Source: an uncultured Clostridia bacterium (GTDB lineage Bacteria > Bacillota > Clostridia > UMGS1883). From it: a stretch of DNA of 51,551 bases. A program made the position numbers and the translations under genes. Position 1 is the stretch's first letter. The number at the start of each line of letters is the position of its first letter. This document shows, in pieces, positions 40,043 to 43,117 of the stretch. Under the pieces are notes generated by a model, which was given only the letters and a program-made list of their open reading frames with translations, was not told the origin of the DNA and made no database searches. The DNA lies in the NCBI GenBank assembly GCA_947630975.1, contig CANRJP010000007.1, forward strand, positions 1 through 51,551, read 5' to 3'.

Positions 40043-40597
40043 TTATATCCCTTTTACGATAACCGCCGAAATGGGAACATCTCCCGTCCGATTGTAAAAG
40101 CGGGTCAGCAGCACGGTGTATCTGCTCGGGTCTAAGTCGGCCAGATATTCCAGCAGGGCGTCCCGCTCCTCATAACCGCTGCGGCCGCCGTAATATATGG
40201 AAAGGGAAATTTTTCCGCCGTCACGGAGCAGCCTCAGCCCCGCCTCAATAGCGGCAACCGTACTTTCGGCATGAGTAAAGACCGAGTGGTCTCCTCCGGG
40301 AAGCCAGCCCAGATTGAACACGATAAAATCAACCGTGCCCGGTTCGGCGTATTTTTCCATGTTTGCGTGACTGTCGAGTATGACCTCGGCGTTATCCAGC
40401 CCCAGCTCTTTCAGCCGCTTTTTGGTGTTTTCCACGGCTTGGGGCTGGATGTCGAAGGCCGTCACCCGTCCGTTTGGACCCACAAGACCGCACAGTTTTG
40501 CCGTGTCGTGGCCGTTGCCGGCGGTGGCGTCGATGCACAGGCCGCCCTTCGGCACGGACTCACGGAACAGCCTGTCGTTCAGGGAGAGGGTATTCAT
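40043..40597 (-). CDS. mnmM: tRNA wobble-uridine methyltransferase MnmM (YtqB family)
   Basis: Class I SAM enzyme of PF06962 (putative rRNA methylase, YtqB). In B. subtilis this family methylates the aminomethyl group of nm5s2U34 in tRNA. Seen: GGLCIDATAGNGHDTAKLCGLVG (SAM loop), VTAFDIQPQAVENTKKRL, VDFIVFNLGWLPGGDHSVFT and ISLSIYYGGRSGYEERDALLEYL. 184 residues. Its ATG overlaps the leuA stop by one base (TAATG), so it is translated in series with leuA. Confidence 0.85.
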   Translation of the reverse strand: MNTLSLNDRLFRESVPKGGLCIDATAGNGHDTAKLCGLVGPNGRVTAFDIQPQAVENTKKRLKELGLDNAEVILDSHANMEKYAEPGTVDFIVFNLGWLPGGDHSVFTHAESTVAAIEAGLRLLRDGGKISLSIYYGGRSGYEERDALLEYLADLDPSRYTVLLTRFYNRTGDVPISAVIVKGI

Positions 40598-42264
40598 TAT
40601 TTGCCGGCCTTTTCCAGGCGGTTAATGGCGCTGATAAGGGCGTAAACCGAGGAGGTCATGATGTCGGTGTTCCTTCCCGCGCCCCAGGAGGAGGTCTTGC
40701 CGTCGCTTATCTCGATGTAGGAGATGGCGCGGCTCTTGCTGCCCTTTTCAAGGGCGTGCTCCTTGTAGGTGACTACCGAGAAGCCCGGATGATAGCGGTC
40801 GCACAGGGCGTTGCACACCGCGTCCAGACGGCCGTTGCCGTGACCGGCCAGCACAAGGGTGTCGCCGTTCATTTCTATTGTCACCTCGGCCTCGATGCCG
40901 TTGCGCTGTACGTAGTGACATTCCATCAGCTTCATGGGGTCGGAAACGTTGATGAAGTCCTTGAGGAAGATATCCAGTACCTCGTCGGGGGACAGTTCCT
41001 TGTGCAGATGGTCGGACACGGACTTCACCGCGTAGCCGAACACCTCCCGCATCTTGGGGGGCAGGTCGTAGCCGAACTGCTTTTCCATCAAATAGCCGAT
41101 GCCGCCCTTGCCACTCTGGCTGTTGATGCGGATAACGTCGCTCTCGTACTCGCGTCCCACGTCGTGGGGGTCGATTGGCAGATAAGGCACCGACCAGCCG
41201 TCGAGGTGCTTTTCCTCACGCCAGTTCATGCCCTTGGCGATGGCGTCCTGATGGGAGCCGCTGAAGGCCGCGAACACCAGCCGTCCGGCGTAGGGGCTGC
41301 GCTCGCCCACGGTCATGCCGGTAAGGCGCTCGTAGGCCGCCACTATGAAGGGCAGATTTTCGAGGTTTAACTTGGGATCGACGCCGTGACTGAACATATT
41401 CAGAGCCAAGGTCACGATGTCCACGTTGCCGGTGCGCTCACCGTTGCCGAAAAGCGTTCCCTCTATCCGGTCGCCGCCGGCCAGCAGACCCAGCTCGCTG
41501 TCCGCCACGCCGCAGCCCCGGTCGTTGTGGGGGTGCAGGGACAGAACCACGCTGTCGCGGCGGTTCATGTTGTCGCTCATGTACTCTATCTGGCTGGCGT
41601 AAACGTGGGGGAGAGACATCTCCACGGTCACGGGCAGATTGATTATCACCTTGCGGTCGGGAGTGGGCTGCCACACGTCGATAACGGCGTTGCAGACCTC
41701 CAGGGCGTACTCGGGCTCGGTGCCGGTGAAGCTTTCGGGAGAGTACTCAAAGAGGAAGTTGCCCTCCATTTCGGAGGCGATCTCCTTCAGCAGCTTCGCG
41801 CCGGAAACAGCTATTTCGGTTATCTCTTCCTTGCTCTTTTTAAAGACCTGTTCGCGCTGGGCCACGCTTGTGGAGTTGTAAAGGTGTACTATGACGGGGG
41901 TCTTGCAGCCCTTCAGGGATTCAAAGGTTTTTCTGATTATGTGTTCCCGCGACTGGGTAAGAACCTGAATGGTGACGTCCTCGGGAATGAGGTTTTTTTC
42001 GATAAGGGCGCGGACGAACTCGTACTCCGTCTCGCTTGCGGCGGGGAAGCCCACCTCAATCTCTTTAAAGCCCACCTCGACGAGAAGCTGGAAGAACTCA
42101 AGCTTTTCCTCAAGGCTCATGGGCACCACAAGGGCCTGATTGCCGTCCCGCAGGTCAACGCTGCACCATACGGGGGCGCGGTCGATGTACTCCTTTTTCG
42201 CCCATTTCAGTTCATTGACAGGAGGCATAAAGTAGCCCCTTTGATACTTTTGGTAATTTTTCAT
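40597..42264 (-). CDS. leuA: 2-Isopropylmalate synthase (LeuA, type 2)
   Basis: First step of leucine synthesis: acetyl-CoA plus 2-ketoisovalerate to 2-isopropylmalate. Seen: APVWCSVDLRDGNQALVVPM (catalytic R and metal ligand D), HLYNSTSVAQREQVF, LSLHPHNDRGCGVADSEL with the metal-binding HPH, GERTGNVDIVTLALNMF and a C-terminal regulatory domain. 555 residues, the longer LeuA form. GGAG lies 8 nt before ATG 42264; the frame starts at 42282. It should be under the Leu T-box at 42828-43090, with the RAYT gene in between. Confidence 0.95.
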   Translation of the reverse strand: MKNYQKYQRGYFMPPVNELKWAKKEYIDRAPVWCSVDLRDGNQALVVPMSLEEKLEFFQLLVEVGFKEIEVGFPAASETEYEFVRALIEKNLIPEDVTIQVLTQSREHIIRKTFESLKGCKTPVIVHLYNSTSVAQREQVFKKSKEEITEIAVSGAKLLKEIASEMEGNFLFEYSPESFTGTEPEYALEVCNAVIDVWQPTPDRKVIINLPVTVEMSLPHVYASQIEYMSDNMNRRDSVVLSLHPHNDRGCGVADSELGLLAGGDRIEGTLFGNGERTGNVDIVTLALNMFSHGVDPKLNLENLPFIVAAYERLTGMTVGERSPYAGRLVFAAFSGSHQDAIAKGMNWREEKHLDGWSVPYLPIDPHDVGREYESDVIRINSQSGKGGIGYLMEKQFGYDLPPKMREVFGYAVKSVSDHLHKELSPDEVLDIFLKDFINVSDPMKLMECHYVQRNGIEAEVTIEMNGDTLVLAGHGNGRLDAVCNALCDRYHPGFSVVTYKEHALEKGSKSRAISYIEISDGKTSSWGAGRNTDIMTSSVYALISAINRLEKAGK

Positions 42265-42311
42265 AACCGTTGCTCCTTTCAAAAAATAGTTATTTATATT
42301 AAGAAATATTG

Positions 42312-42812
42312 CTAACGTAACTCATAATACCATTTTGCCGGGTTTTTGTCTATGTACTGCCATCGGGTCAAAAAATCGTTTTCATCGCGGACAATGTGGT
42401 CGTAAAAACTCGTCTGCCAAAGCTTCTCTCCCGTTTCCCGGTTGGTAAAGCGCTTTAACGCGCCAATGACCGACGATACGGTAGGGCGCGACGACCTCGG
42501 CGCGCCGTAGTTTTCGGAAACGGCTTTGGCATTGTCATTTATCGTCATTAAAATATGTACATGATTTGGCATAATTATATAATTCTCAACAGTAATATCA
42601 GCATAAGCCTTTGGTATGCTCAGAATATATTTTTCTACTATTTTCCCGCGTGACGACAGGGCTGTTTCCGGCGCGCCGGGGTCGTCGCGCCCTACGGTTA
42701 TGCGGGAAAAAATACATTCCTTGTTTCTTGCGCACACAGTTATAAAATATGCGCCGACAGATGAATAATCATAGTCTTTAAGTCTCGGATGTTTGCGGTT
42801 TGGTAAATCCAT
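42312..42812 (-). CDS. REP-associated tyrosine transposase (RAYT, IS200-like Y1 family)
   Basis: Single-strand DNA transposase domesticated to act on REP palindromes. Seen: SSVGAYFITVCARNKECIF, the HUH motif in IIMPNHVHILM, and the catalytic-tyrosine region SFYDHIVRDENDFLTRWQYIDKNPAKW. 166 residues. The frame is open to 42854, but that part lies in the T-box terminator, so ATG 42812 is taken. It is located between a T-box leader and leuA in the same direction. Its own coding sequence carries two inverted 27-bp REP-like copies (42481-42507 and 42669-42695). Confidence 0.88.
   Translation of the reverse strand: MDLPNRKHPRLKDYDYSSVGAYFITVCARNKECIFSRITVGRDDPGAPETALSSRGKIVEKYILSIPKAYADITVENYIIMPNHVHILMTINDNAKAVSENYGAPRSSRPTVSSVIGALKRFTNRETGEKLWQTSFYDHIVRDENDFLTRWQYIDKNPAKWYYELR
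42481..42507 (+). repeat. REP-like GTAG hairpin within the RAYT gene, copy 1
   Basis: Starts GTAGGGCGCGACGACCTCGG and ends CGCGCCG. GGCGCG and CGCGCC can pair as a stem at whose foot stands GTAG, the tetranucleotide that marks RAYT-recognised REPs in enterobacteria. On the coding (minus) strand it encodes YGAPRSSRPT. It is 26/27 identical to the inverse of 42669-42695. Confidence 0.75.
42669..42695 (-). repeat. REP-like GTAG hairpin within the RAYT gene, copy 2 (inverted)
   Basis: On the minus strand starts GTAGGGCGCGACGACCCCGG and ends CGCGCCG. It encodes VGRDDPGAP. With copy 1, 161 nt away in opposite orientation, it forms a BIME-like pair. Confidence 0.75.
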
Positions 42813-42827
42813 AAAATCACGGCTTTT

Positions 42828-43090
42828 CCACAAATAAAGGCTCCGTCTCCACATAGAGACGAAGCCGGGCTGCTCCGCGGTACCACTCTATTTCGCCAAA
42901 AAGGCGCACTTTACGGATACGTTCATATCCTGCCGCTGTAACGGTCGGCCTCCGTCTTAACCTATGACCCGGCGCACCGGGGTTCAGCAAGCGACTCCAA
43001 GGCGAGTTCGGACTCTTTCCGCCGCCGGCTCACACCGCCCGCCGGCTCTCTGGGGACTTCCGGAATCTTACTGCTCCTTTTCACAGTCTT
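42828..43090 (-). promoter_or_regulatory. T-box leader, probably leucine-specific
   Basis: On the minus strand the T-box AGAGTGGTACCGCGG (42889-42875) is followed by the terminator GGCTTCGTCTC-TATGT-GGAGACGGAGCC (42866-42839) and TTTATTT. Upstream lies the stem I region with AGTA (near 43070), GAGAGCCGGCGG, GTGTGAGCCGGCGG and GAACTCGCC. The likely specifier is CTC (43006-43004), a leucine codon placed after GAA as usual, which agrees with leuA downstream. Uncharged tRNA-Leu would stabilise the antiterminator and allow read-through into RAYT, leuA and mnmM. Specifier assignment is by position, not by folding. Confidence 0.88.
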
Positions 43091-43117
43091 TGGTTATTTG
43101 TGTTCGATTGTGCTTCT

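Follow-up and report, generated by a model that had tools for sequence, protein, structure and literature searches.

An inverted, GTAG-outward pair of REP sequences within the coding region of clostridial RAYT genes

Why would a transposase gene carry two inverted copies of a REP sequence inside its own reading frame? The question is raised by a REP-associated tyrosine transposase (RAYT) gene of an uncultured Clostridia bacterium, located in the 51,551-nucleotide stretch of DNA that was analysed here and that we refer to as the window (Table 1). The encoded protein scores against the NCBIfam family NF047646 with an E value of 5.8e-17 and 61.9 bits, under the curated cut-off of 80, and a Pfam search with it returned no family; we nevertheless take it as a divergent member of NF047646 despite the sub-cut-off score, because fold and motifs agree. 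Its AlphaFold2 model (pLDDT 89) has its best PDB match in 4er8, the E. coli RAYT with a REP hairpin (VIA Z 12.9; rows beyond HUH enzymes, at Z 8 or lower, were left uninterpreted), and the alignment contains both an HUH motif (MPNHVH) and a single candidate catalytic tyrosine, Tyr153, within this RAYT fold. About 69 aa separate the two, compared with 86–132 aa in some Bacteroidia homologues and a median of 88 aa given for subclass 2.4, or RAYT group 4, in PMC6006769. The list of open reading frames offers an alternative upstream ATG at 42854. Four weak relatives of the protein were found in a plasmid collection and one in a phage collection.

The original prediction had described two opposed 27-bp sequences in this gene, each consisting of GTAG and a hairpin as in known RAYT targets, and their translation as VGRDDPGAP and YGAPRSSRPT. 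All of this holds. The sequences are identical at 26/27 positions, their inverted arms stretch to 30 nt with 28 matches, and none of the dinucleotide shuffles of the window yielded a match. Either copy has GTAG at the foot of an imperfect palindrome, belongs to the genome's own REP type (see below) and adopts, as single-stranded DNA, a 6+2-bp hairpin fold that contains an A.G mismatch, ....((((((.((....)).)))))). in dot-bracket notation. All 37 distinct copies collected from RAYT genes have GTAG, on which their detection was itself based. The geometry of the pair, inverted and with GTAG outward, is that of a REPIN; movement as a unit was seen once, in a relative (L207, below), not for this copy. 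The flanking REPs of a REPtron are missing: no further copy of the window REP occurs in the 51.5-kb window and no GTAG/CTAC motif of the searched form lies within 300 bp of the gene, the pair being internal instead.

Table 1. Positions of the features discussed, numbered from the first letter of the window.
Feature	Position	Strand	Description
RAYT gene	42312..42812	-	Intact, 166 aa from ATG at 42812; HUH motif and candidate catalytic Tyr153
REP1, GTAGGGCGCGACGACCCCGGCGCGCCG	42669..42695	-	Frame 0 (GTA GGG = Val-Gly); codes VGRDDPGAP in loop 1; 123 nt before MPNH codons
REP2, GTAGGGCGCGACGACCTCGGCGCGCCG	42481..42507	+	Strand opposite REP1; codes GAPRSSRPT in loop 2, directly before third helix
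REP1-bracketed segment-REP2	42481..42695	.	215 bp; GTAG outward at both ends; REPIN-like geometry; contains HUH-coding part
MPNHVH codons (HUH motif)	42555..42572	-	Alignment
Tyr153 codon (WQYIDKNP)	42354..42356	-	Candidate catalytic tyrosine; aligns with conserved Tyr region of 4er8
Helix 112-127 codons	42432..42479	-	Invariant Lys120; equivalent of E. coli TnpA-REP DNA-binding helix; comes after REP-encoded loop 2
T-box leader	42852..43093	-	Directly upstream of RAYT gene; Rfam RF00230, 109.4 bits
leuA-type gene	40597..42282	-	Downstream of RAYT; product name from reading of translation

Are these two sequences members of a wider REP population? Whole-genome counts, made irrespective of intergenic position, gave 23 copies of the window REP at up to three mismatches in the window genome (G000) and 0 for the reversed control pattern. 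Three REP types were searched for, each by a single pattern, across 31 to 38 genomes. One type, GTAGGGGCCGACGCCCTCGGCGGCCCG, is found in G021, G023 and G026, where the RAYT has the same REP, and in compensated form in G025 and G027, with none in the others of 31 genomes; a second, GTAGGGGACGATGCCCACATCGTCCCG, is found in G024, G036 and G039 and in variant form in G022, again with none in the others of 31. The window type is present in G000 and, with 34 copies, in G004; eight more of the 38 genomes have fewer or varied copies. For these three types, the genomes in which a REP is concentrated are mostly those with a RAYT of that type or of a compensated one, with three exceptions: no RAYT of the window type was found in G004, G037 has 95 copies at one or two mismatches to the window type and a fetched RAYT of another type, and G025 has 14 copies of a type absent from its fetched RAYT. 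The window genome and G004 also contain non-coding GTAG-out pairs, 226–268 nt apart, compared with 188 nt for the intragenic pair. Separately, non-coding GTAG-out REP pairs were seen around other short palindromes (AAGCCTTCCCCT..AGGGGAAGC, GGATGAGGTGTAG) at L001, L019 and L147–L149, forming a repeat mosaic.

In the window genome, the RAYT gene is placed between a T-box leader and leuA. In most relatives of the genus, T-box and leuA occur with no RAYT gene between them. No RAYT occupies the locus in G001, G002, G003, G005 or G004, the last with a leuA that is 96% identical, and G006 retains a C-terminal RAYT remnant that starts in REP2. The 34 orphan copies of G004 fit a loss of RAYT there or, as a less favoured reading, separate gains.

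To what extent is the pair shared by related genes? Relatives were drawn from the family, from genome contigs and from class-wide samples. Among 58 clostridial homologues, 40 have GTAG in loop 1 and CTAC in loop 2, one on either side of the HUH motif and always with GTAG outward, and their peptide varies with the repeat. The original prediction had named as its counter-evidence a lack of other genomic copies and homologues with the same peptide without the palindrome; the copies listed above and the 40 genes with both motifs speak the other way. Two genes, L059 and L068, have lost the palindrome and kept peptide remnants, and look like losses of the pair, which the family tree shows spread through most of the family. 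GTAG lies in frame 0, mostly 120–126 nt 5' of the HUH codons, and CTAC usually in frame 2 (of the 40 genes, L027 deviates with frame 0 and L033, L036, L039, L079 and L093 with frame 1). Counting more broadly, an inverted pair spans the HUH codons in 69/87 RAYT genes: 65 are GTAG-out, 1 is GTAG-in and 3 are unassigned. Loops 1 and 2 account for 51 of these 69 pairs, the rest using an upstream, downstream or other internal REP. At 504 control points in flanking DNA, only 4 pairs were found, none of them GTAG-out. Genes without an inner pair often have flanking or half-flanking GTAG-out pairs, and a few relatives have the pair outside the gene on both sides.

Such regularity has to be set against a passive origin, wherein REPs land in loops that tolerate inserts and recombination or slippage keeps them similar to genomic REPs, so that the pair would be functionless and its breakage an ordinary consequence of palindrome fragility. 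The peptides vary freely with the REP, the loops fall in low-confidence blocks of the model (pLDDT 64–79), and REPs inside genes are already known (PMC3733652). Bacteroidia homologues, too, have other repeats in the same loops without a fixed pair, and in-frame tandem arrays exist. A passive origin does not predict, however, the constant position and GTAG-outward orientation (65:1), nor the flanking and half-flanking GTAG-out pairs of genes that lack the inner one. We consider it unlikely. As observations in their own right, the Bacteroidia repeats of L170, L174, L181 and L183 are GTAGAGACG..CGTCTCTAC palindromes in the HUH–Tyr stretch and sometimes in loop 1, and the array in loop 1 of L196 (G049:C53) consists of a 42-nt REP unit repeated in frame.

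What, then, is conserved: the peptide, a duplex between the arms, or the single hairpins? Over the 58 homologues, the best inverted match of loop 1 to loop 2 averages 16.7 within a gene and 8.75 between genes, and 0/20,000 permutations reached the within-gene value. In 40 genes, 898/1000 bases match between the two copies, whereas synonymous recoding gives 605±11 with a maximum of 641; codon choice and peptide consequently do not account for the match, and peptide conservation as its cause is ruled out. Within the REP sites, 18–20 of 20 third codon positions are identical in 10/11 gene pairs with internal REPs (the exception being L086/L089, with 11 of 20), compared with 42–90% in the core, where dN is well under dS wherever dS is estimable. 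We also looked for recent REP swaps between near-identical RAYT genes and found none, the closest gene pairs sharing the same REP.

The pattern of substitutions points to the hairpin. In 31 genes of the 27-nt class, 486/496 stem pairs are standard, and stem position 11.20 is G.A or A.G in 46/62. Across the 37 distinct copies, 97.6% of stem cells are paired, with 46 double-change cells as compared to 9±2.6 in shuffles. In the 31 genes, 33 stem pairs are not the same in a gene's two copies, and 26/33 have changed on both sides and still pair. Since such between-copy differences are compensated within each hairpin, we rejected the long arm-to-arm duplex as the conserved unit.

This bears on autoregulation, one of the two routes that the original prediction had envisaged. 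RAYT might bind or cut its own hairpins in single-stranded DNA, or the arms might pair in the mRNA as a 27-bp stem open to RNase III, either of which would limit the gene's own expression. The minimum-energy fold of the mRNA does pair the two arms (z -4.8) and the gene sits behind a T-box leader; still, those 26/33 differences keep the single hairpin and weaken the duplex, and some genes pair loop 2 with an upstream REP outside the reading frame. We rate autoregulation as rather improbable. Lower still do we rate a role at the protein level, in which the REP-encoded loops would help to recognise the REP and the same bases encode both target and reader. Loop 2 directly precedes the helix with the invariant Lys120, which aligns with a helix of E. 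coli TnpA-REP, α3, that contacts the REP stem (PMC8266576). Peptides are, however, almost wholly different between REP types while base pairing is kept, and genes with a flanking left REP have no REP-encoded loop 1, so that we would be very surprised to see such a role borne out.

Broken RAYT copies offer a different line of evidence. We read remnants one by one, leaving out fragments at contig ends, and in this post hoc tally, to which a single genome (G049) contributes four events, about 15/21 break at REPs. Rough expectations of about 19% for one break and 34% for two put this at 2.5e-7 and 5e-4, respectively. Several copies terminate at REP1, at its 3' foot (L193, L224), four nt beyond (L203/L204), 9 nt past it (L226) or inside it (L231); L041 and L227 start within REP2, and L215 starts exactly at the GTAG of REP1. 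From G049, L194 is an in-frame fusion to a second, different RAYT, joined 6 nt before the REP1 of the latter. L146, a paralogue in which the bracketed segment of the first RAYT is missing, is without the stretch from inside REP1 to 9 nt beyond REP2, its break on the GTAG strand of REP2 falling at a CT dinucleotide 5' of GTAG, as in known TnpA-REP cuts (one case). L201 starts downstream of a GTAG repeat, a collapsed palindrome forms the end of L225, and REP2 is interrupted by an insert in L115/L131. In L220, everything between the two hairpin loops is deleted and one double-foot palindrome is left, which fits slippage between 9-nt direct repeats within the two palindromes. L200 starts at a hairpin without GTAG. 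Breaks elsewhere than at REPs were seen in L209, L212, L213, L221, L222 and L229; the L209 remnant (G153:C26) lies between the arms of an inverted repeat (GTGTGCCCTAAAGGACAGTAA) that is not related to its own REP.

Palindromes are fragile in general. A passive origin would accordingly account for breakage as such, and for the L220 deletion, yet it does not predict exact starts at GTAG as in L215 and L207. In the latter, from G011, RAYT homology runs from the GTAG of REP1 to the outer foot of REP2, giving a stand-alone REP1–HUH segment–REP2 between the stop of an mrp-like gene and the convergent greA. G012 and G013 have no insert at the orthologous site, and in the sister G010 a lone right-hand REP is found at that 3' junction. 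The ability of the bracketed segment to move as a unit finds its best evidence here, in one case from a 73%-complete MAG. Self-mobilisation, the other route of the original prediction, thereby gains comparative support from L207 and from the clustering of breaks at REPs, while the part of RAYT as the cutter is one that we infer.

How does this compare to known systems? In-frame REPs within RAYT genes are already known: Quentin et al. 2018 describe REPs in the coding region of tnpA-REP genes of subclass 2.4 (RAYT group 4), leaving the frame unbroken and generally located between HUH and Tyr, and mention double-foot REPs (PMC6006769), of which L220, by deletion, is reminiscent. The clostridial genes differ from that description in their oriented inverted pair, with one copy on each side of HUH, mostly fixed frames, compensatory stems, a genomic match (three types), breakage at REPs and a stand-alone bracket. 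The literature searched, with incomplete coverage, contained no description of an oriented pair; supplementary Fig. S10 of PMC6006769, which may include pairs, lay outside its scope. Within these bounds, the arrangement seen across Clostridia, an oriented and genome-matched pair, appears to be a new form of the known intragenic REPs. With REPtrons (PMC8266576, PMC3733652) it shares a RAYT gene, GTAG-tagged REPs and genomic copies, carriers mostly holding their own type (three types), but a REPtron has its RAYT flanked by REPs, whereas the clostridial REPs are inside the gene. REPINs and BIMEs (PMC3116915) likewise consist of two inverted REPs and a spacer as a unit; here, the spacer is transposase coding sequence. 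REPs and RPEs in other genes (PMC3733652) are also palindromic repeats translated within proteins, yet, unlike the clostridial pair, they are not tied to their own transposase at fixed, paired sites.

Together, we think it probable, with some reservation, that the repeats represent cognate REPs of the RAYT, paired as in a REPIN and placed in two permissive loops of its own gene with GTAG outward around the HUH segment, and that RAYT recognises and cuts them. E. coli TnpA-REP acts on single-stranded REP, which it binds and cuts, and not on the complementary strand, and GTAG is important for this (PMC8266576); by analogy, the clostridial enzyme would act likewise on its own gene whenever this is single-stranded, recognising the intragenic hairpins and cutting there. 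Such cutting would keep the REPs of the gene identical to the genomic population, the cognate target would travel along with the RAYT gene, and the bracketed piece would occasionally be copied out or broken by RAYT action. The protein would merely tolerate the REP-encoded loops, whose peptide would not itself be the object of conservation. More tentatively, and at less than even confidence, the arrangement could be viewed as an inside-out transposon, in which the ends that the enzyme recognises lie inside its own coding sequence around the catalytic segment: enzyme and target would be inherited together, the target renewed by the enzyme, and the segment could itself move as a REPIN.

The intragenic pair bears on how REPs spread and on why a RAYT stays matched to its own REPs. 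As a record built into the gene, it suggests which REP a given enzyme serves, and broken or stand-alone copies may keep footprints of RAYT action. The hairpins, moreover, can be removed by synonymous recoding, leaving the protein unchanged.
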